From contig CP100319.1 in NCBI GenBank assembly GCA_029851125.1, positions 201,762 through 265,761 of the forward strand: a stretch of 64,000 bases of DNA, read 5' to 3'. How positions within the stretch are numbered: the stretch's first letter is position 1; each line of letters opens with the position of its first letter. Shown piece by piece: positions 7,720-51,435 of the stretch. The stretch comes from Candidatus Bostrichicola ureolyticus (GTDB lineage Bacteria; Bacteroidota; Bacteroidia; Flavobacteriales; Blattabacteriaceae). The position numbers were made by a program, and so were the translations under genes. The notes beneath the pieces were generated by a model that worked only from the letters and a program-made list of their open reading frames with translations, was not told the origin of the DNA and did no database searches.

Positions 7720-9183
7720 TTGTATAAACAATTATTGAATCAAATTATAATATTTGGATTAGGAACTGTATTCCCTAAAATAATAAATTATTTTTTGTTA
7801 AAATCTTTTACTAAAACTTTAAATTCACAGGAATTTTCAAGTTATACTGACATGTATGCTATGTCATGTATAATTATAGTATTTTTAACTTTGGGATTAG
7901 AAAGTGCTTATTTTCGTTTTTTATATAAACGACAAATTAATGATAAAAAAAAAATATTTTCAAGTGGAATAATTGTATTATTTACATTGTCATTATTATT
8001 TGTACTAATTGGAATAGTATCATTCAAAAAAATAATTAGTTTAATCAATTATAAAAATAATTACGACTATTTGATAATGTTTTTAATTATAATATTTTTG
8101 GATACTATTTGCATATTACCTATTGCTTGGTTACGAATACATAATATAGCTATCAAATATTTATTAATCCGCATATTAAATGTATTTGTACAATCTGGAA
8201 TTATAATGTATATCTTATATCCAACAAATAATTATATTATTAATTATGTATTTAACATTATTTTATTTCCGTTAAATTTTATAAAAAATAAAAATAATAC
8301 ATCTTATATATTTTATGCGAATGTAATATCATCATTATCAAATTTTATTTTTTTGATTCCAATTTTTTTGAAAGAAGTTAAAATCAAAAAATTTGATATA
8401 GTAATAGCATTAAAAATGATAAGATATGGATTCCCTATAATGTTAAGTACTTTAGCATTTGCTATTAATGAAAATTTTGATAAAATAATTATTAAAAGAT
8501 ATTTTTCTGATGAAATTAATAGTGCTTATGCAGCTTGTTATCGTATTGCCACTTTTATGCATCTTTATACTGCAATTTTTCGTTTAGGTCTAGAACCTTT
8601 TCTATTAAAAATAGCTGAATATAGTAATATTAAAAGTATTTATGCAAAAATAAATTATTTTTTTACTGTGTTTGGAATTATAATATATGTATTTATATGT
8701 AGTAACATTGATTTTATAGCTAAAAAAATGATAGATGTTAAATATCACCAAGCATTATTAATAGTTCCAATGGCAACTATGTCTAATTTATTTTTTGGTA
8801 TTTATAATAATTTATCTATTTACTATAAAGCATTTGATAAACCAATTATAGCAACATATATATCTATTTTAGGGATGTTAATAACATTATTATATAATTT
8901 AATAATATTGCCAGGATCAAATTTTATTAGTTGTGTGTGGGGTAATTTAATTTCATATGGAAGTATGTTATTATGTTCATATATTTGTATTAACAAAATG
9001 TATTTTAATATTCCTTTTAATAAAAAAAAAATAATAATTCATTTTATATTAGCAATATTTATTGTATATATATTATATAATAAAAAAAATTTAAGATTAA
9101 TTGGTCAAATTATATACTTTTTAAGTATATTATTAATTGAATATAAAAACATATTATTTTTTTTTAAAAAATTAAAATCATGA
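7720..9183 (+). CDS. Polysaccharide flippase-like membrane protein (MATE/Wzx superfamily)
   Basis: The 487-residue protein is almost wholly hydrophobic, with about 12-14 predicted membrane segments and the opening [20 protein letters not shown] characteristic of O-antigen/lipid-linked oligosaccharide flippases. In a peptidoglycan-bearing reduced genome it could flip an undecaprenyl-linked sugar, but the substrate cannot be told from sequence. The start is TTG at 7720; the next in-frame ATG would delete the first membrane helix. Its TGA overlaps the tatA ATG (ATGA), showing translational coupling. MurJ is a possible alternative role. Confidence 0.8.
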
Positions 9184-9467
9184 TATTAGGAACTTTTGGA
9201 ACTACAGAAATTATTGTTATTATTATTTTGGCTCTTTTACTTTTTGGAGGAAAAAAAATTCCTGAATTAATGAAAGGATTAGGTTTAGGATTAAAAGAAT
9301 TTAGAAAAGCTACTCAACAATCTTCTGATGATCAAGTAGAGCAAGTAGAGCAAGTAGAGTCTGAAACAGAATCTAAAAAAACAGAATCTAAAAAAACAGA
9401 ATCTAAAAAAACAGAATCTTCTGACAAAACAGAATCTAAAAAAATAGAATCTGAAAAAACAGAATAA
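9180..9467 (+). CDS. tatA: Sec-independent translocase subunit TatA/E
   Basis: Small pore-forming subunit of the twin-arginine export system. One membrane helix (about residues 8-22), the FGGKKIPEL hinge and an amphipathic helix ([12 protein letters not shown]) are all present. From about residue 50 the tail is low-complexity and charged, encoded by tandem repeats: three 9-bp units at 9333-9359 and three 15-bp units at 9366-9410, plus decayed copies. tatC lies at 46471-47256. The gene is coupled to the upstream flippase by a 4-base overlap and ends 2 bases from the convergent clpC. Confidence 0.93.
9333..9410 (+). repeat. Tandem repeats inside the tatA 3' end
   Basis: Three copies of the 9-mer CAAGTAGAG (9333-9359) are followed by three copies of the 15-mer ACAGAATCTAAAAAA (9366-9410). 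Both are in frame and encode VEQ and TESKK units. Imperfect copies continue to 9467. Confidence 0.9.
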
Positions 9468-24233: not shown

Positions 24234-26848
24234 ATGAAATCTAAATATATACGGAAAGCATTTATAGATTTTTTTAAAAAAAAAATCATAAAATAGTTGA
24301 GTCATCATCTATTATAATTAAAGATGACCCTACATTGTTATTTACTAATGCAGGAATGAATCAATTCAAAGATTATTTTTTAGATAATAAAAAAATAGAA
24401 TATCCACGTATTGCAAATACTCAAAAATGTTTACGTATTACTGGAAAACACAATGACTTAAATAATGTTGGATATGATAATTATCACCATACTATGTTTG
24501 AAATGCTTGGTAATTGGTCTTTTGGTGATTATTTTAAAGAAGAAGCTATTTATTGGGCTTTTGAGCTATTGACAGAGATTTATAACATTTCAAAAGAAGA
24601 TATTTATGTAACAATTTTTAGTGGTGATGTGCAAGATAAATTACCTTTTGATAAAGATACATATAAATTTTGGAAAAACATTATTAATGATAATCGCATA
24701 CTTTTATTTGATAAAAAATATAATTTTTGGGAAATGGGTTTAACTGGACCATGTGGTCCTTGTTCAGAAATTCATATTGATTTGCGAAGTAATAAAGAAA
24801 AAGTTAAAGTTCCTGGTTATAAATTAATAAATCAAGGAAATCCTGAAGTTATTGAAATATGGAATATTGTTTTTATAGAATTTTGTCGTAAAAAAGATGG
24901 TAATTTAGAAAAATTACCAAAAAAGCATGTTGATACTGGTCTAGGATTTGAAAGATTATGTAGAATTATTCAAAGAAAATCATCTAATTATGATACTGAT
25001 ATATTTATGCCTTTAATTAAAGATATTGAAAGATATACTGGCCAAATATATGGACTAGAAACAAATGAAGATATTGCAATACGTATTATTGCTGATCATA
25101 TTCGTGCAATTGCTTTTGCTATATCAGATGGTAAACGTCCTTCTAATACTGGTGCAGGATATGTAATACGTCGTATTTTACGACGTGCTATGAGTTATGC
25201 TTATAATTTTCTTGAACAAAAAAATCCTTTCCTTTATAAATTAGTTGATACATTAGCTATTAATACAAATGAAGTATTCCCTGAAATTAACAATAATAAA
25301 TTATTGATTAAACAAGTAATTAAAGAAGAAGAAAATTCTTTTATTAAAATTATAGATAATGGTTTAATACGTATTAAACAAATTATAAAGGAATTTAAAA
25401 ATAAAAATACTATTGATGGAGCTAAAATATTTGAGCTTTACGATACTTATGGATTCCCATATGATTTTTCTTATACTATAGCAAAAAAAAATAATTTAAC
25501 TATTGATAAAAGTGGTTTTGAAAAAAAAATGTTTGAACAAAAACAACGTTCAAGAAAAAATAGGATAATACAATATCATGATTGGATCATTAATAAAAAT
25601 GATTATTCTTATTTTGTAGGTTACGATAAATTAGAAACATACGCTAATATTATTAAATATAGATTAGTAGAAACATATAAAGATAAATATTATCAAATTG
25701 TTTTAGATAATACTCCTTTTTATCCTGAAAGTGGTGGTCAAGTTGGAGACATTGGTTTTATTATAAATGATGATGAAAAAATTTCTATTTTAAATACAAA
25801 AAAAGAAAATGATCTTATATTACATATAGTATCAAAAATTCCTAATAATCCTAATAAGAATTTTAAAGCAATAGTAGACATTGATAGAAGAAAAAAAATT
25901 GAAAAAAATCATACTGCAACACATTTATTACATTATGTATTAAGAAAAATTTTAGGAAATCATGTTGAACAAAGAGGATCTTACGTAGGACCAGATAAGA
26001 TAAGATTTGATTTTTCTAATTCATATAAATTAAATGATAATATAATAGAGATTATTGAATCTAATGTAGATGAAATAATTAATAAAGGATTTTCTTTAGA
26101 AGAAAAGAGAAATATATCATTAAAACAAGCTTTAAAAGATGGAGCTATAGCACTTTTTGGAAATAAATATGGTAATATTGTACGTACAATTAGATTTGGT
26201 AATTCAATAGAATTATGTATTGGCACCCACGTACATAATACAAAAGATATTCAAATATTTAAAATAATTTCCGAATCATCTGTAGCTTTAGGTATACGGC
26301 GTATTGAAGCCATTACATCAATAAATGCTATAAAATATCTAAAAGACATTTATAAAAAATATAATATTATTATCAATAATTTAAAAAATCCAATTGATCC
26401 AATAAAAGCTATTAATAATATTAAAAATAATAATAAAATACTAAAATTTAAGCTTAAAAATATTGAAAAAAAACAACTTAATATTTTAAAAAACGAATGG
26501 ATATCTAGAGCAGAAAAAACTACATCACATACTATTATTTTGGAAAAAACTGATTTAGATTTTAATTTAATTAAAACTATTACATTAGAATTACGTAAAG
26601 ATATATTTAATTTATGCATTATTATTTTTAATATTTTTAAAAATGAAATAATACTTTGTACAGCACTTTCAGACAATATTATTAAAAATGGAATTGATGC
26701 TAGATTGATTATTAATTTATTTGATAATTATATTTTGGGAAAATGTGTAGGACATAACTTTTTTGCTATGATTAAAGGTCAACTTTTAAAATCAATAAAT
26801 ATTGATTTAATTCGTAATAAAATTCAGAAATATTTTAATCAGGCATAG
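24234..26848 (+). CDS. alaS: Alanyl-tRNA synthetase, frameshifted at a poly(A) tract
   Basis: Class II synthetase. The true start is the ATG at 24234, which gives MKSKYIRKAFIDFFKKK, the expected AlaS N-terminus. The frame then breaks at a run of ten A (24276-24285) and hits TAG at 24294. Adding one A restores NHKIVESSSIIIKDDP and then LLFTNAGMNQFKDYF without a break to 26848, giving 871 residues, the family's normal length. The uninterrupted downstream frame (from an ATG at 24356) lacks the first part of the catalytic core. The editing domain HTATHLL and the C-Ala region are present. Alanine charging is essential, so either transcriptional slippage restores the frame or the tract is miscalled. 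The end overlaps the convergent ftsK by 14 bases. Confidence 0.93.
24276..24285 (+). other. A10 slippage site in alaS
   Basis: Homopolymer of ten A, where eleven would keep alaS in frame. It is preceded by a T run (TTTTTT), which gives a soft TTTTTT-A10 context well suited to RNA polymerase or replication slippage. Confidence 0.85.
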
Positions 26849-28394
26849 GAAGTTGAAAATTATCGTTTTTCATAATTTTATTAGTTTTTTTATAATTATT
26901 TATAATAGTTTCAATATCATGTGTATCTATAAAAGGACATTGTAAACGTATTATTTCACTTCCATTATAAAATAACATATCACCTTTACCCATTAGTTTA
27001 TCAGCACCTATAGTATCTAATATAGTTATTGAATCAACTTTAGATGCTACTTTAAAAGCAATACGTGCTGGAAAATTAGCTTTTATAATACCTGTTATTA
27101 TATTAACTGATGGACGTTGCGTGGCTATTATTAGATGAATTCCTACAGCACGAGATAATCTAGATAAACGTAGAATATAAATTTCTATTTCTTTAATTAT
27201 TAAATCTGCAAATTCATCAATAATCAATACAATATAAGGCAAAATTTTATATTTTTTATTATATTCTTGAATATTTCTAACCATCTTTTTTTTAAGAATA
27301 TTATATCTTCTATCCATTTCTTTACACAAAGCATTTAACACATCTTTTGCTCGATTTGCATCAGTTATTATATATTCATCATCGTTAGGTATTTTAGCTA
27401 AAAAAAAATCAATTTTTTTATATTGATATAATTCTACTTTTTTAGGGTCTATCATAACAAATTTTAATTCATAATGTTTCTTTTTACATAATAATGATAT
27501 TATTATAGCATTTAATCCTACAGATTTTCCTTGTCCAGTAGCCCCTGCTATAAGTAAATGAGGCATCTTAGTAAGATCTACTATAAATGGTTTATTATAT
27601 ATATTTATACCTATAATTATAGGTAATTCCATTATTGCTTTTTTAAAAATTTGTGACAAAATAACATGTTTAATATAAACTGGAATAGGATTTTTATTAG
27701 GAATTTCTATCCCAATTGTTCCTTTTCCAGGGAGAGGAGCTATAATACGGACGTGTATTGCAGACAAATTAAGAGCAATTTCATTTTCAAGATTTTTTAT
27801 TTTTGCAATACGTACTCCTACTTCTGGAACTATTTCATATAATGTTATTTGATGTCCTATTGTAGCTTTTATATTTTTAATTTCTATTTTATAATTTTTA
27901 AAAATTTCAACAATTTTGTACTTATTATATTCTACTTTTTTATTAAATTCTTTTTTGTTAAATTCTTCTCTACAAGTTTTGTTTTTTAAATCATAAAGTT
28001 TTTTTAGAGTTCTTAACTTAAAAGGAGTAATTTTAAATAAAAAAATTATATATAAAAAAAATAATATACTTATAGTACCACTATATAAAATAACAATAGG
28101 AATCAAAAGTATTAAAATATATTTAATATAATTAATACAAAATAAAATTATTAATCCAATTAATAATAATGGCAATAAAAAAGAACCATTATAAATAAAT
28201 TTATCTACAATTAGAGCACCAATTTTTACTAAAAAATTTTTAGTTTTTTCTAATTCATAAAATGAATTATAATTTTGATATTTATTAAAATGAATCAAAA
28301 AAGAAAATAAACTTATGTATAATGCTATACATAAAGTTATTAAAACTAATCCTAATCCTATTACAGTATATAATATTTTTTTTAAAAAATTCAT
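26835..28394 (-). CDS. ftsK: DNA translocase FtsK, short form without gamma domain
   Basis: Septum-located hexameric DNA pump for chromosome segregation. At 519 residues it is well below the usual 750-850 of the phylum. Four membrane helices fill residues 1-130 with a short linker, then the motor: Walker A GATGQGKS near residue 285, Walker B VLIIDEFADL near 390 and the ATQRPSVN motif. The protein stops about 30 residues after the motor, with no winged-helix gamma domain (KOPS recognition, XerD activation). Convergent with alaS and divergent from aspS. Confidence 0.92.
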   Translation of the reverse strand: MNFLKKILYTVIGLGLVLITLCIALYISLFSFLIHFNKYQNYNSFYELEKTKNFLVKIGALIVDKFIYNGSFLLPLLLIGLIILFCINYIKYILILLIPIVILYSGTISILFFLYIIFLFKITPFKLRTLKKLYDLKNKTCREEFNKKEFNKKVEYNKYKIVEIFKNYKIEIKNIKATIGHQITLYEIVPEVGVRIAKIKNLENEIALNLSAIHVRIIAPLPGKGTIGIEIPNKNPIPVYIKHVILSQIFKKAIMELPIIIGINIYNKPFIVDLTKMPHLLIAGATGQGKSVGLNAIIISLLCKKKHYELKFVMIDPKKVELYQYKKIDFFLAKIPNDDEYIITDANRAKDVLNALCKEMDRRYNILKKKMVRNIQEYNKKYKILPYIVLIIDEFADLIIKEIEIYILRLSRLSRAVGIHLIIATQRPSVNIITGIIKANFPARIAFKVASKVDSITILDTIGADKLMGKGDMLFYNGSEIIRLQCPFIDTHDIETIINNYKKTNKIMKNDNFQLPMPD

Positions 28395-32800: not shown

Positions 32801-33367
32801 TTGTATTATAAAAAAGAAATTCGTAAAATTTATTTACAACGTAGAAAAGAAATATCTAAAAAAGAGTTATTACTACTTAGTAGTAAAATATATAATAATA
32901 TACAAAATATTAATATTTGGAATAAAAAATATTATCATATTTATTTACCCATAAAATATGAAATAAATACATATCCCATTATTTATAAATTATTATCAAT
33001 GGATAAACAAGTAGTAATTCCTAAAATTAATTTTTCAAACATGTTTATAGAAAATTATTTATTTAAAAAAAATACTTTTTTAAAAAAAAATAAATATGGT
33101 ATATTAGAACCTTTAAAATCAGAACAAATAAGTTATCTATTGATAGATATAGTCTTTATTCCTTTATTAATTTTTGATAAAGAATATAATCGTGTAGGAT
33201 ATGGTTATGGATTTTATGATAAGTTTTTAATTAATTGTAGAGTAGACGTAATAAAAATTGGATTAAGTTTATTAGAACCTATATCTAGAATAATAGATAT
33301 AAATATGGATGATATACCATTAGATATAGTAGTTACTCCTAATAAAATTTATAATAAAATTATTTAA
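32801..33367 (+). CDS. 5-formyltetrahydrofolate cyclo-ligase
   Basis: Converts 5-formyl-THF to 5,10-methenyl-THF with ATP, clearing the inhibitory product made by GlyA. The 188-residue protein has N-terminal IRKIYLQRRKE (substrate/ATP side) and the C-terminal signature RVGYGYGFYDKFL near residue 138. The start is TTG at 32801, 25 bases after tRNA-Val; there is no upstream ATG in frame. It overlaps the convergent rseP by 8 bases. Confidence 0.9.
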   Translation: MYYKKEIRKIYLQRRKEISKKELLLLSSKIYNNIQNINIWNKKYYHIYLPIKYEINTYPIIYKLLSMDKQVVIPKINFSNMFIENYLFKKNTFLKKNKYGILEPLKSEQISYLLIDIVFIPLLIFDKEYNRVGYGYGFYDKFLINCRVDVIKIGLSLLEPISRIIDINMDDIPLDIVVTPNKIYNKII

Positions 33368-34665: not shown

Positions 34666-35640
34666 TTACCTATGTAAAGATATATATATAGTATTACTAA
34701 TAATTTCTGAAATAGATAGACCTGCTATCTTAATTTGTTTAGGAACAATGCTATCTTTAGCCATACCAGGTATAGTATTTATTTCTATGAAATAAGGTTC
34801 TCCATTAACTATTATATAATCTGATCTAGATAATCCAGACATTCTTAATAAAGAATATACTTTTTTTGCAATTTTTTTTACTTTTTGTTCAGTAGAATAT
34901 GATATTCTGGAAGGAGTAATTTCTTTTGCTTTTCCTAAATATTTGGCTTCATAATCAAAAAACACATTTTCGCTTATAATTTCTGTTATAGGAAGTATTA
35001 TAACTTCATTTTTGAATGTTAAAACTCCTACAGAAATTTCGATTCCATCTAAAAATGATTCTATAATAATTTCATTATCTTCATTAAATGCTTTATTTAT
35101 TGCAAATAATAATTCATCTTTTTTATTTACTTTAGATATTCCTAAACTAGAACCAGATTTATTAGGTTTAATTATACATGGTAATCCAACTTTTTGTATT
35201 ATTTTTTCATTTGAAAATTTTATATTGTTATATAACAAAAATGATTTTGCTGTTTTAATTCCAAATGAATTCAAGAATTTTTTACATAAATTTTTATTTA
35301 TTGTTAATGCTGATTGATGAAAATTTTCACCAGTACATGGTATATTGACAATATTAAAATATGCTTGCAATTTACCATCTTCACCAGGTGTACCGTGTAT
35401 AGCATTATAGACAACATCAAATCGTAAAATTTTACCATTTATGTTAGTTGTAAAATTATGTTTATTTATTTTATATTCTTTATTATTATCTATCAATACC
35501 CATTTATTTTTAAATAAATAAATTTTAAAAGGATTAAATTCTTTACGATCAATATTATCAAAAACTGTTTGTCCACTTTGCAAAGAAATACTAAATTCAT
35601 TTGAATACCCTCCCATAATAATAGCAACGTTTTTTTTCAA
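34666..35640 (-). CDS. ddl: D-alanine--D-alanine ligase
   Basis: ATP-grasp ligase that makes the D-Ala-D-Ala end of the peptidoglycan stem. The 324 residues include HGTPGEDGKLQAYF near residue 88, the ATP-binding KPNKSGSSLGISKV near 157 and the magnesium/substrate motif EINTIPGMAKDSIVP near 293. It uses the D-alanine made by alr (59465-60925). Divergent from the PASTA protein, an arrangement common in Bacteroidota. Confidence 0.96.
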   Translation of the reverse strand: MKKNVAIIMGGYSNEFSISLQSGQTVFDNIDRKEFNPFKIYLFKNKWVLIDNNKEYKINKHNFTTNINGKILRFDVVYNAIHGTPGEDGKLQAYFNIVNIPCTGENFHQSALTINKNLCKKFLNSFGIKTAKSFLLYNNIKFSNEKIIQKVGLPCIIKPNKSGSSLGISKVNKKDELLFAINKAFNEDNEIIIESFLDGIEISVGVLTFKNEVIILPITEIISENVFFDYEAKYLGKAKEITPSRISYSTEQKVKKIAKKVYSLLRMSGLSRSDYIIVNGEPYFIEINTIPGMAKDSIVPKQIKIAGLSISEIISNTIYISLHR

Positions 35641-45189: not shown

Positions 45190-45667
45190 TTTATATATCC
45201 ATAATCAATTTTTAAATATTTGTTTTTAACAGAAAATTGTTTAGCTAATTTATCACAATATTTATTATATAATAAATAATGTCCTTTTATCCATTTAAAT
45301 AAAATAAATGTATGTTTACGATAAATAATTAATAAACGTTTCCATAAATCAGAATTTTTTTTTTTAAAAAATTATTTTTTTCCCAAGAAAAAACCCATTT
45401 TTTTTCTATAGCATCAACTATATATTTTGAATCTGTGAAAATAATAATTTTTTTGTTATTTGTTTTTTTTACTATTTCTAATGCTAGAATAACTGCTGTT
45501 AATTCCATTCTATTATTTGTAGTATAATTGAAACCTCCTGAAAATTCTTTTTTATAAAAAGTTCCAAAATTATTATATAATATAATTATGCCATACCCTC
45601 CAGGGCCAGGATTTATCTTAGCAGATCCATCTGTATATATATGTATTTCATTTTGATTTAAATTCAT
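45186..45667 (-). CDS. rnhA: Ribonuclease HI, frameshifted at a poly(A) tract
   Basis: Cuts RNA in RNA-DNA hybrids. The N-terminal frame carries YTDGSA, NRMELTAV and FTDSKYIVDAI (three of the four catalytic acids) but after WEKNNFLKKK it shifts and stops at 45329. The break is at eleven T on the plus strand (45355-45365). With one more A in the coding strand the frame continues as NSDLWKRLLIIYRKHT, then WIKGHYLLYN and KYCDKLA with the fourth catalytic Asp, to a TAA at 45186-45188. The corrected protein has 160 residues, normal for the family. The start overlaps plsC by 20 bases. Confidence 0.9.
45355..45365 (-). other. A11 slippage site in rnhA
   Basis: Coding-strand run of eleven A, preceded by TTTTTT. 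Twelve would keep rnhA in frame. The context is strikingly like the A10 tract in alaS, also T6 followed by A-run and also one A short. Confidence 0.85.
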
Positions 45668-46460
45668 AATTTTTTTTAAATTTTATTAATTGATAATAAA
45701 TCATATTAAAACATTTTTTTTTTAATTTATTTTTATATTTAATATTTAAATTTTTTGTAATGATAATTTTATGTTGTTTTACACGTATATTTCCAGGTTT
45801 ACCAATAGTAAAAAAATTATTAAAAAAATTTTTAAAAAAATTATAAGGAAATTTATGTTTAAGATCTGCTATAGTAAATGCTAATATAGGTTTTCCTGTT
45901 TTTATAGCAATAGAAAAAGCTCCATTTTTAAATGGCAATAATAAAATATTTTTATTATTGTTAATACAACCTTCAGGAAAAATGCAAATACTTTTACCAT
46001 CCATTATTTTATTTTTTATTTCTTCAAATACTTTTCTATTTTTAGTACGTTTTACTAAAATATTGCATTTTTTGTATATATATCCAAATATAGGAATTTT
46101 TACTAATTCATATTTACCTACAAATATTACAATATTTTTTTTAAAAATTGAATATATTAACATTATATCCAGAATAGAAACATGATTACTTATAACAATA
46201 TAAGATTCATTTTTTTTTATTAATTCTTTATATTTTTTTATTAAAGTATATCTAAATCCCATTAAGAAAAGATTGCATTGTCCCCAAAAACTATGAAACA
46301 AATAAGCAATATAATAATATTTTTTACTAAAAATAAATGGTATAGATATACATCCTAATAATGGAATTAATATTATATTAATAAATATAAACCATATTCT
46401 CCATAATATGGATAATATTATTATAAATATTTTATATATAAAGCTAAAAAAAAATTTCAT
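45648..46460 (-). CDS. plsC: 1-acyl-sn-glycerol-3-phosphate acyltransferase
   Basis: Adds the second acyl chain in phosphatidic acid synthesis. The 270-residue protein has N-terminal membrane helices, the HX4D motif in SNHVSILDIML near residue 93 and FPEGCINN near residue 160. Downstream rnhA starts inside its last codons. Confidence 0.92.
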   Translation of the reverse strand: MKFFFSFIYKIFIIILSILWRIWFIFINIILIPLLGCISIPFIFSKKYYYIAYLFHSFWGQCNLFLMGFRYTLIKKYKELIKKNESYIVISNHVSILDIMLIYSIFKKNIVIFVGKYELVKIPIFGYIYKKCNILVKRTKNRKVFEEIKNKIMDGKSICIFPEGCINNNKNILLLPFKNGAFSIAIKTGKPILAFTIADLKHKFPYNFFKNFFNNFFTIGKPGNIRVKQHKIIITKNLNIKYKNKLKKKCFNMIYYQLIKFKKNYEFKSK

Positions 46461-48303: not shown

Positions 48304-48753
48304 ATGATACTTAATAAAAAAATTTCATATAAATATAATTTATATGAAGAATATATTGCTGGAATACAATTATTAGGAACTGAAATTAAGTCAATTAGAC
48401 AATATAAAGTAAGTATATCTGAAAGTTATTGTCAAATAAAAAATGAAGAATTATATATAATTAATATGCATATAGCTGAATATAAATTTGGAACGTATCT
48501 TAATCATGATCCTAAAAGAGAAAGAAAACTACTTTTGCAAAAAAAAGAATTATTAAGATTAAAACGAAAATTAAAAGATTCAGGAATTACTATTATTCCT
48601 TTTAAATTATTTTTTAATAAAAAAGGTTATGCAAAATTGCAAATATTTTTAGCAAAAGGAAAAAAAAATTATGATAAACGAAAATTTCTTAAAGAAAAAG
48701 AAATAAAAATTCTTAAAGAAAAAGAAATAAAAAATTATTTAAATAAATATTAA
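48304..48753 (+). CDS. smpB: tmRNA-binding protein SmpB
   Basis: Partner of tmRNA in rescue of ribosomes stalled on mRNAs without stop codons. The 149 residues keep the oligonucleotide-binding barrel, including GIQLLGTEIKSIRQYKVSI, the ELYIINMHIAEY strand and the HDPKRERKLLLQKKEL segment. The tail that enters the decoding site is extended by a 24-bp tandem duplication (48687-48734) encoding two near-identical LKEKEIK units. The tmRNA gene itself is not in the window. It starts 3 bases after ychF. Confidence 0.95.
   Translation: MILNKKISYKYNLYEEYIAGIQLLGTEIKSIRQYKVSISESYCQIKNEELYIINMHIAEYKFGTYLNHDPKRERKLLLQKKELLRLKRKLKDSGITIIPFKLFFNKKGYAKLQIFLAKGKKNYDKRKFLKEKEIKILKEKEIKNYLNKY
48687..48734 (+). 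repeat. 24-bp tandem duplication in the smpB tail
   Basis: Two copies of TCTTAAAGAAAAAGAAATAA followed by AAA and T or A, differing only at the last base. They are in frame and double the LKEKEIK unit. Confidence 0.9.
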
Positions 48754-48813: not shown

Positions 48814-49140
48814 ATGAAAAAAATAATATCATTCATATTAACTATATCATTATTAAATATAGGAATATTGCATTCAGAAACTAATGTTAATAATGTTCTA
48901 GGAAACAAAGATAAAGAAGTTGAAATAAATTTTGACAAAATAACAGGTATATCTATTTCAGAAATTCTTAATATAATCAAAGAAAAAATTCTTCAAGCTA
49001 AAACTAAAAAAGAAGCTAAAACTAAAAAAGAAGCTGAAGCTAAAGCTAAAAAAGAAGCTGAAGCTAAAGCTAAAAAAGAAGCTGAAGCTCTAGAAAGAGA
49101 AGAAGCTGAATCTGCTATATCTGGTAAAGCTTTAATTTAG
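48814..49140 (+). CDS. Orphan secreted Lys/Ala/Glu repeat protein
   Basis: Not recognised. The 108 residues begin with a convincing signal peptide: KK, then a hydrophobic stretch IISFILTISLLNIGIL, with possible cleavage near HSE (residues 20-22). A short unique part follows (about 23-61), then in-frame repeats: two 6-residue AKTKKE units (48997-49032) and two 8-residue AEAKAKKE units (49033-49080). The Lys/Glu/Ala pattern suggests a long charged helix, as in TolA-like linkers. The stop at 49138 falls within a degenerate repeat that continues in the same frame past the stop. It lies 60 bases after smpB. Confidence 0.6.
   Translation: MKKIISFILTISLLNIGILHSETNVNNVLGNKDKEVEINFDKITGISISEILNIIKEKILQAKTKKEAKTKKEAEAKAKKEAEAKAKKEAEALEREEAESAISGKALI
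48997..49080 (+). repeat. Tandem repeats in the orphan secreted gene
   Basis: Two 18-bp units (GCTAAAACTAAAAAAGAA) followed by two 24-bp units (GCTGAAGCTAAAGCTAAAAA plus AGAA), all in frame. The 24-bp unit looks like an expansion of the 18-bp one. Confidence 0.9.
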
Positions 49141-49215
49141 AGAAGAAGCTCTATAATAAGCTGCTAAATCTGGTAAAGCTTTATCTCAATTTTTAGAGAA
49201 GAAGCTGCTAAATAA
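49096..49215 (+). repeat. Degenerate direct repeats across the orphan gene's stop
   Basis: AGAGAAGAAGCT occurs at 49096, 49139 and 49195. Between copies, ATCTGGTAAAGCTTTA is shared by copies 1 and 2. Copy 2 carries TAATAA in the reading frame. This 3' region looks like a former, longer coding end broken by stops; apart from it I see no gene between 49141 and 49309. Confidence 0.75.
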
Positions 49216-49250: not shown

Positions 49251-49304
49251 AAAAAAAATATAAATTTTATATGTTTTTTTTCATATAAAATTTATATTTT
49301 TTTT
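49251..49304 (+). terminator. Perfect 23-bp hairpin after the orphan gene
   Basis: The arms 49251-49273 (A8 then TATAAATTTTATATG) and 49282-49304 (its exact complement, ending in T8) flank a loop of eight T. It ends in a T-run and precedes tRNA-Val, so it can act as an intrinsic terminator in either direction. The core of the left arm is also present as a direct repeat at 49214-49234, before the hairpin. Confidence 0.7.
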
Positions 49305-49309
49305 TATAT

Positions 49310-49384
49310 GGACATTTAGCTCAGTTGGTTTAGAGCGTTACTTTGACAGAGTAAAGGTCGTCGGTTCGACTCCGATAATGTCCA
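49310..49384 (+). tRNA. tRNA-Val(GAC)
   Basis: A 75-nt cloverleaf: acceptor GGACATT / AATGTCC with discriminator A, anticodon loop TTGACAG (anticodon GAC) and T-loop TTCGACT. It is divergent in strand from the three tRNAs that follow. No full CCA is encoded. Confidence 0.95.
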
Positions 49385-49413
49385 CTGTTTGGTATGTTGT
49401 AATTTATGTGATG

Positions 49414-49487
49414 TGGTCACGGCAGGATTCGAACCTGCGACCGACTGCTTAGAAGGCAGTTGCTCTATCCTACTGAGCTACGTAACC
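49414..49487 (-). tRNA. tRNA-Arg(TCT)
   Basis: A 74-nt cloverleaf: acceptor GGTTACG / CGTGACC with discriminator A, anticodon loop CTTCTAA (anticodon TCT) and T-loop TTCGAAT. Third member of a minus-strand tRNA cluster Ser-Pro-Arg. Confidence 0.96.
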
Positions 49488-49504
49488 AAAAATAAATTGG
49501 TATG

Positions 49505-49579
49505 TCGGGGTGGTAGGATTTGAACCTACGATTTCCTGGTCCCAAACCAGGCGCGATAACCGGACTACGCTACACCCCG
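49505..49579 (-). tRNA. tRNA-Pro(TGG)
   Basis: A 75-nt cloverleaf: acceptor CGGGGTG / CACCCCG with discriminator A, anticodon loop TTTGGGA (anticodon TGG) and T-loop TTCAAAT. The C1-G72 pair fits bacterial tRNA-Pro. Confidence 0.96.
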
Positions 49580-49586
49580 AAGAAAG

Positions 49587-49673
49587 CGGAGAGTGTGGGA
49601 TTCGAACCCACGCAGTATATATTATTACTGACAGTTTAGCAAACTGTTCCGTTAACCACTCCGGCAACTCTCC
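49587..49673 (-). tRNA. tRNA-Ser(GCT)
   Basis: An 87-nt class II tRNA: acceptor GGAGAGT / ACTCTCC with discriminator G, anticodon loop TTGCTAA (anticodon GCT), an AT-rich long variable arm and T-loop TTCGAAT. First gene of the minus-strand tRNA cluster. Confidence 0.96.
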
Positions 49674-49702: not shown

Positions 49703-50728
49703 ATGAAACATCAAATTATATTGGGAATTGAATCATCATGTGATGAGACATCTGCGGCTTTAATTAAAAATAATAAAATATTATCTCATATTATATATTC
49801 CCAAGATGTTCATAAAATATACGGTGGAGTAGTTCCTGAATTAGCTTCTAGATCACATCAAATAAATATTATTCCAATAATAAATAAAACAATATTATTA
49901 GCAAATATTAATAAAAATGAAATAAATGCTGTAGCTTTTACTAGGGGTCCTGGTCTTATGGGATCTTTATTAGTTGGAGCATCTTTGGCAAAATCGTTTG
50001 CTATATCATTAGGAATTCCTATTATAGGAATTCATCATGAACAAGCACATATTTTAGCACATTTTATAAACGGTATTCATAAATATCCACCTAAATTTCC
50101 ATTTTTATGTTTAACAGTAAGTGGTGGACATACAAAAATTGTTAAAGTTAATGATTTTTTTGAAATGACTGTTTTGGGTAATACTATTGATGATACAGCT
50201 GGAGAAGCTTTTGATAAAATTGCTAGAATATGTGGATTAGGTTATCCTGGTGGACAATTAATTAATTTTTATGCAAAAAAAGGGAATCCTACAAAATTTT
50301 GTTTTTCAAAACCGAAAGTTTCTGGACTAAATTTTAGTTTTAGTGGATTAAAAACACATATATTATATTTTTTGGAAAAAAAATTAAAAAAAGATTCTAA
50401 TTTTATTAAAAATAATATACATGATATATGTGCATCTTTACAACAAACTATTATAGATATTTTATTAGAAAAAATAAAATTAGCTTCACTAAATTTTAAT
50501 ATTGATAGAATAGTATTATCTGGAGGAGTTTCAGCTAATACTGAGTTCCGAAAACAATTTATTCAAACTGCTTTAAAACAAAATATGAAACCATATATTC
50601 TTCCATTTGAATATACTAAAGATAATGCAGCAATGATTGCTATGGTAGGTCAATTAAAATGTGACCGTAAATTATTTGATTCTTTAAATATTACACCTTG
50701 TGCTAGATATGATTTAAAATCAATATGA
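49703..50728 (+). CDS. tsaD: tRNA N6-threonylcarbamoyladenosine synthase subunit TsaD
   Basis: Transfers threonylcarbamoyl to A37 of ANN-decoding tRNAs. The 341-residue ASKHA-fold protein has GIESSCDETSAAL at its start, metal-binding histidines in HHEQAH near residue 111, the nucleotide-binding SGGHTKIV near 138 and SGGVSANTEFR near 273. Its stop overlaps the rsmE start (ATGA). Confidence 0.96.
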   Translation: MKHQIILGIESSCDETSAALIKNNKILSHIIYSQDVHKIYGGVVPELASRSHQINIIPIINKTILLANINKNEINAVAFTRGPGLMGSLLVGASLAKSFAISLGIPIIGIHHEQAHILAHFINGIHKYPPKFPFLCLTVSGGHTKIVKVNDFFEMTVLGNTIDDTAGEAFDKIARICGLGYPGGQLINFYAKKGNPTKFCFSKPKVSGLNFSFSGLKTHILYFLEKKLKKDSNFIKNNIHDICASLQQTIIDILLEKIKLASLNFNIDRIVLSGGVSANTEFRKQFIQTALKQNMKPYILPFEYTKDNAAMIAMVGQLKCDRKLFDSLNITPCARYDLKSI

Positions 50729-51435
50729 AATTATTTTTTTTAGAAAAAAAAAATGATTCTATGATAGAATTAAATAAACAAGATAGCTATCATATAAATA
50801 CAGTATTACGTATGCATCCAGGTAAAGAAATTTTTGTTACAAATGGATATGGTGATTTGTGGAAAGCAATTATTCATTCAATTATTAATGGAATCGTAAA
50901 AGCAAAACCTATAATGCATTATCCAGAATATAATAAAAAAAAATATTGGGTACATATAGGAATATCTTTAATTAAATCTATTGATCGATTTGAATGGTTT
51001 TTAGAAAAAGCTACTGAATTAGGTGTTGATGAAGTAACACCTTTAATATGTAAAAATTCTGAAAGAAAAAAAATTAATATAATTAGAGGAATTAAAATTA
51101 TTCGTTCAGCAGCCAAACAATCATTTAGAACATATATTCCTATTATAAATAATGTTAGTATGTTTAATACATTTATTTCATCTATGAATAATTATAATTC
51201 TAAATTTATTGCACATTGTAATACTAATTTTAACAGAAAAGTTTTTAACGAAGTCATTCAAAATACAAAAAAATATATAATTTTAATTGGTCCAGAAGGT
51301 GATTTTTCTAGTGAAGAAATTAATCAAGCATTGAATTTTAATTGGAATAGCATAAGTTTAGGAAATATTAGATTAAGAGTAGAAACAGCTGGATTAGTTG
51401 CTTTACATACTTTATTATTAAAGTATAATAGTTAA
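50725..51435 (+). CDS. rsmE: 16S rRNA (uracil1498-N3) methyltransferase RsmE
   Basis: SPOUT methyltransferase of 236 residues. An N-terminal PUA-like part (HINTVLRMHPG) is followed by the family's KATELGVDEVTPLICKNSER segment near residue 96 and the SAM site LIGPEGDFSSEEI near 190 with LRVETAGLVAL. It is coupled to tsaD by a 4-base overlap and overlaps the convergent rpmE2 by 4 bases. Confidence 0.94.
   Translation: MKLFFLEKKNDSMIELNKQDSYHINTVLRMHPGKEIFVTNGYGDLWKAIIHSIINGIVKAKPIMHYPEYNKKKYWVHIGISLIKSIDRFEWFLEKATELGVDEVTPLICKNSERKKINIIRGIKIIRSAAKQSFRTYIPIINNVSMFNTFISSMNNYNSKFIAHCNTNFNRKVFNEVIQNTKKYIILIGPEGDFSSEEINQALNFNWNSISLGNIRLRVETAGLVALHTLLLKYNS

Follow-up and report, generated by a model that had tools for sequence, protein, structure and literature searches.

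A predicted exported repeat protein in the smpB-linked ompA slot of Candidatus Bostrichicola ureolyticus, probably left over from an envelope gene whose membrane machinery has been lost

Introduction

The closest described counterpart of the locus analyzed here is the smpB-linked OmpA of flavobacteria, which combines an N-terminal β-barrel (PF13505) with a peptidoglycan-binding OmpA domain (PF00691) and occurs in Weeksellaceae and in a genus of relatives, including genome G009, that we take to be Blattabacterium. The gene that immediately follows smpB, on the same strand, is ompA-like at 27 of the 27 Blattabacterium loci checked, in a relative with a larger genome (G003, 415 aa), and in Apibacter and Faecalibacter (Weeksellaceae). 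Both domains were found in the tested Blattabacterium and G003 proteins, with the Blattabacterium barrel match lying under the Pfam cut-off. Blattabacterium ompA products are mostly 394–466 aa long, and their interdomain linker is rich in K, E, N and D, variable in length, and in several strains carries lineage-specific tandem repeats, for example VVKEEEEKEKGVSSSDST (four copies), NEKEEVV (three copies) and DSVSDSEKEK (four copies). Strain-specific, in-frame tandem repeats are seen between barrel and OmpA domain at L100:2650-2900 and in L095, L104 and L107; the linker is a hypervariable spot in a cockroach-symbiont surface protein.

The slot has other fates among the relatives. In G002, G007 and G010, smpB adjoins tatC directly, and the ompA slot has thus been deleted. 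In G005, the slot past smpB (L161:1600-2960) spans 1.3 kb, contains a long tandem duplication and has little coding capacity, the only ORF encoding a 43-aa hydrophobic-lysine product; this is perhaps another decayed ompA.

Here we analyze the same slot in a 64,000-nt stretch of DNA (the window). The window genome is a single contig of 344,793 bp, with a GC content of 18–26% along the window, and contains urease, gdhA, lysA and peptidoglycan genes. These features are consistent with Bostrichicola ureolyticus, for which means of 337.5 kb and 22.4% GC are reported (PMC10284843). The genus-mate used for comparison (G001) has a genome of 337,336 bp, with three Mur-ligase-domain genes versus five in the window genome, and all statements at genus level refer to these two genomes (n = 2).

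Results

A predicted secreted repeat gene in the slot downstream of smpB

The gene order smpB – slot gene – tRNA Val/Arg/Pro/Ser – tsaD is common to the window genome and its genus-mate (Table 1). On the plus strand, codon log-odds at the slot gene are positive in the annotated frame only, and since the genus-mate encodes a homologous signal peptide at the equivalent position, the ORF is confirmed as real, beyond chance. The sequence elements named in the original prediction are present, in a 108-aa ORF with a signal peptide, a unique part, and in-frame repeats with units of 18 bp (AKTKKE) and 24 bp (AEAKAKKE). The array at 49012–49110 has a Tandem Repeats Finder score of 149 and is tied with the tail of tatA as the highest-scoring in the window.

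Table 1. Features of the smpB–tsaD interval in the window.
Feature	Position	Strand	Description and evidence
smpB, upstream anchor	48304..48753	+	PF01668, E 1.3e-50; 90% identical in genus-mate
ompA-slot gene	48814..49140	+	108 aa, predicted exported low-complexity protein; ATG start, TAG stop; syntenic genus-mate gene 416 aa; in-frame codon log-odds
Signal peptide MKKIISFILTISLLNIGILHS, 21 aa	48814..48876	+	homologous to MNKIILSIILSISLLNIGVLHS of genus-mate; shuffle test; pS/pN
Unique part of mature protein, residues 22-61 (40 residues)	48877..48996	+	homologue not found in searches
K/A/E repeats: AKTKKE x2, AEAKAKKE x2, AEALEREE, AESAISGK, ALI	48997..49137	+	repeat finding; AlphaFold helix
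Post-stop relic, duplicated 3' end	49136..49215	+	copy 2 in +1 frame with two stops; partial copy 3 back in frame 0
Terminator-like hairpin and T run ahead of tRNA-Val	49251..49304	+	23-nt arms, 100% complementary
tRNA-Val(gac) +, tRNA-Arg(tct) -, tRNA-Pro(tgg) -, tRNA-Ser(gct) -	49310..49673	.	downstream synteny block, also in genus-mate
tsaD, downstream anchor	49703..50728	+	89% identical, same place in genus-mate

Matches of the window protein to families in Pfam, NCBIfam and PDB sequences are compositional only. The protein resembles the K/A/E helices of TolA domain II in composition and in its predicted long helix, but the match to NCBIfam TIGR02794 (positions 184-231, E 0.013) scores 14.8 bits where the cut-off is 59.45, is compositional, and comes without a TolA C-terminal domain. 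A search of 40 relatives with the window protein returned the signal peptide of the genus-mate and chance matches to K/E/A-rich segments, and nothing else. One weak genus-mate match, at C1:80350, falls within ordinary genes and was rejected as chance. The slot protein of the genus-mate had no match in the other genomes of a 25-genome set. The gene is therefore an orphan, as originally described, with respect to family databases, but not by position, where the gene of the genus-mate is homologous in its start and signal peptide; the homologue at the same place on which the original prediction was staked is thus present.

An AlphaFold model computed from the single sequence, without alignment, predicts one long helix (residues 48-103, pLDDT ~80) behind a low-confidence linker; on this model, the protein may be helix-forming, as originally suggested. 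Promoter matches at the locus were no more numerous than in shuffled sequence, and Rfam identified only the tRNAs.

The mature part has been replaced between two close genomes

The conservation of the slot gene is confined to its leader. The alignment of the two leaders scores 72, a value reached by none of 1000 shuffles, whereas the alignment of the two mature parts is equalled by 472 of 1000. Over the leader, pS is 0.36 and pN 0.115, which points to purifying selection on the signal peptide, although the sample is small (22 codons only). Behind the homologous signal peptide, the 416-aa ORF of the genus-mate encodes an unrelated, repetitive mature part that is rich in N, K, D and E and has a net charge of -11, as compared to a K/E/A composition and a net charge of +1 in the window. 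The mature lengths, 394 and 87 residues, respectively, strongly support the rapid length change proposed for this gene.

For the other alignable genes of the window, identity between the two genomes is 61–97%, with a median of 86%. At fourfold-degenerate sites the mismatch is 16% (0.16), as opposed to 54% (0.54) at saturation, corresponding to a distance of 0.19, and unconstrained DNA is therefore expected to be still alignable, at ~84%. Since neutral divergence is this low and the mature parts nevertheless cannot be aligned, the mature part was replaced rather than point-mutated away; the exchange proceeded through indels and repeat turnover, and not through erosion by point mutations. Four other genes in the window, ftsK-like (26835-28394), a 188-aa ligase-like gene (32801-33367), plsC-like (45648-46460) and rsmE-like (50725-51435), have no match across 70 kb of syntenic sequence in the genus-mate and represent differential loss between two close genomes.

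Selection holds the frame open in the genus-mate. The mature part of its slot gene has a codon log-odds of +105 bits in the annotated frame, while the other two frames contain 42 and 108 stops. Its 394 mature codons are free of stops, whereas neutral simulation over the divergence of one branch yields a mean of ~12 stops, and none of 4000 runs stayed open. The same simulation gives P 0.06 for the short window copy, which may be decaying.

Repeat turnover is not restricted to the slot gene

Hydrophilic repeat segments that differ between the two genomes are also found in well-known proteins. In tatA (9180-9467, plus strand), the first 45 residues are conserved, and the tail consists of QVE and ESKKT repeats in the window genome and of SDNKQDNI repeats in the genus-mate. 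In grpE, which adjoins dnaJ (L187:1664-2287 and L186:1663-2340, both on the minus strand), the disordered N-terminal segment is built from SEKDEKDLK repeats in the window genome and from NKDL in the genus-mate, and the domain behind it is well conserved. The C-terminal tail of smpB itself has a 24-bp duplication of its own (repeat 48681-48733) that is missing from the genus-mate. Repeat growth in disordered segments is thus a general habit of both genomes, and the number of repeats by itself provides no evidence of a host-driven arms race. TatA and GrpE share with the slot gene a conserved functional end and a hydrophilic repeat segment that is wholly different in the two genomes; they differ from it in being known proteins in which a folded or membrane part is conserved, whereas the slot gene conserves only its signal peptide.

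The 3' end and the terminator-like hairpin

The original prediction held that the frame after the TAG continues to match the region before it. The duplication is real, with 92% identity over 26 nt between 49109-49134 and 49158-49183, and 83% over 24 nt between 49136-49159 and 49192-49215. The second tail copy, which overlaps the TAG and reads REEAL, two stops, and AAKSGKAL, lies in the +1 frame, however, and does not continue the gene in frame. The third, partial copy (49195-49215) is back in frame 0 and reads REEAAK followed by a stop. Farther downstream, a hairpin is present at the equivalent place in both genomes, with different sequences and z-scores of -4.81 in the window and -7.72 in the genus-mate. 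A consensus terminator scanner reported none at the locus, probably because the stem is almost devoid of G-C pairs.

A 3' repeat copy broken by stops is what would be expected if the gene were a useless pseudogene in both species, i.e. a decaying ompA reduced to a leftover signal peptide and the products of repeat slippage. The loss of Omp85 and OmpA (see below) and the G005 slot, 1.3 kb with little coding capacity, also agree with such a fate. Against it, the 416-codon open frame of the genus-mate cannot be neutral, a terminator-like hairpin has been retained in both genomes, and the signal peptide, within its small sample, seems to be under purifying selection. We consider pseudogenes in both species distinctly improbable.

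Relationship to OmpA

By its defining domains, the slot gene is outside the OmpA family. Pfam gave no match to the PF00691 domain in either slot protein or anywhere else in the two genomes, although G003 and G009 have it. The N-terminal β-barrel (PF13505) was not found in the slot proteins, and the AlphaFold model is helical. Omp85 (PF01103), the BAM machinery that accompanies OmpA-family proteins, had no match in the window genome or its genus-mate and is present in G003, G004 and G009. Against an HMM of ompA genes, the window protein scores no better than its shuffled copies and the genus-mate protein scores -41 bits, and hhalign comparisons of OmpA with the slot products give probabilities of 0.1-0.3%.

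Two features of OmpA-type genes are shared by the slot gene: (i) a Sec-type signal peptide, with a hydrophobic leader that is homologous in the two species and may be cleaved, and (ii) a same-strand position directly 3' of smpB, at a similar spacing. The Blattabacterium signal peptide is not specifically similar to the slot leaders, and signal peptides are generic. The genus-mate gene, with 416 aa, is of ompA length, within the range of most Blattabacterium genes, and the K/E-rich, repeat-prone mature segment resembles the linker of Blattabacterium OmpA, the composition of which is close to that of both mature parts. Unlike flavobacterial OmpA, the slot gene shows no barrel, OmpA domain or detectable similarity past the signal peptide, and it resides in a genome without Omp85.

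As no OmpA sequence was detected in either product, our case for ompA descent is built on position, export signal, length in the genus-mate, and mode of evolution. On these grounds we somewhat favor the view that the slot gene is a positional descendant of the flavobacterial smpB-linked ompA, cut down to an export signal and linker-like filler.

The lack of an OmpA signal in the HMM and hhalign comparisons would also suit an unrelated gene that arose or was inserted after the deletion of ompA, with a mature part perhaps assembled as a patchwork of fragments from other genes. Over 37 nt (48937-48973), the unique part resembles the 3' end of ddl (34695-34731) in frame, with 95% identity to ddl of the genus-mate and 86% to that of the window. 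The match is borderline: 22 of 150 random window segments match equally well or better within the window, and 5 (2 of them non-tRNA) do so in the genus-mate region, a calibration that places it, in an A+T-rich genome, at the edge of chance. The patchwork origin, for which matches to ddl and to the J-domain of dnaJ looked strong by raw E-value (1.8e-10, 5e-8), was not sustained after this calibration, and the dnaJ match looks like convergence of K/A/E codons. An unrelated gene would, in addition, require that ompA was lost and that another exported gene, again of ompA length, then appeared in its place, and we regard it as highly improbable.

Discussion

Ranking the slot gene as a positional descendant of ompA, we propose that it became what it is by the following route. 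Once the lineage lost Omp85/BAM assembly, the barrel and the peptidoglycan-binding OmpA domain would no longer have been kept, leaving the gene start with its export signal and, behind it, a mature segment of hydrophilic, linker-like character. The gene probably continues to be expressed and its product to be exported by Sec, and either cut by signal peptidase I, which is present in both genomes, or anchored through an uncleaved signal. The product would then remain on the outer side of the cytoplasmic membrane, a charged polypeptide, flexible or helical, for which the precise sequence is nearly irrelevant, perhaps with a residual structural or filler role. The mature segment would evolve as short tandem repeats are gained or lost in frame and as indels occur, like the Blattabacterium ompA linker and the tails of tatA and grpE. 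In the genus-mate, the product would have remained long (416 aa), with its frame under selection; in the window genome, it would have shrunk to 108 aa, with a damaged 3' end, and is maybe on its way out. Of the two alternatives offered by the original prediction, the better supported one is an envelope protein "on its way out", given the conserved smpB–ompA slot and the loss of the OmpA and Omp85 domains.

The other alternative, a host-facing or periplasmic protein, corresponds to a newly functional, fast-evolving exported protein selected for export, length and charge rather than for sequence, for which descent from ompA is optional and whose current role could be, for example, to fill the surface or to serve as a sink for host peptides. 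The maintained frame of the genus-mate, the signal peptide conserved in both genomes, and the retention of the gene in both species, while other lineages without Omp85 dropped the slot, are in line with this proposal, and in genomes without Omp85 an exported protein could be near the host side. On the other hand, the mature parts of the two species have neither their sequence nor the details of their composition in common, and the window copy is short, has a ragged 3' end, and is not significant by its open frame alone (P 0.06). The tails of tatA and grpE, moreover, turn over alike without a host-facing role. Such a new function strikes us as rather doubtful. Still somewhat less likely, in our judgment, is that the exported protein is functional but that selection acts on its export signal, open frame and hydrophilic character only, with an outer-membrane protein gene turned into a sequence-indifferent filler of the envelope or host side.

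The slot gene probably survives from an envelope gene that no longer has its membrane machinery, and it provides a concrete, testable case of the fate of a major outer-membrane protein gene once its folding machinery is lost. Where relatives delete ompA, the export tag and the open frame are retained here, and the cargo has been replaced. Because the tatA and grpE tails of this genome show turnover of the same kind, host-driven selection need not be invoked when a mature protein has diverged completely between close relatives.
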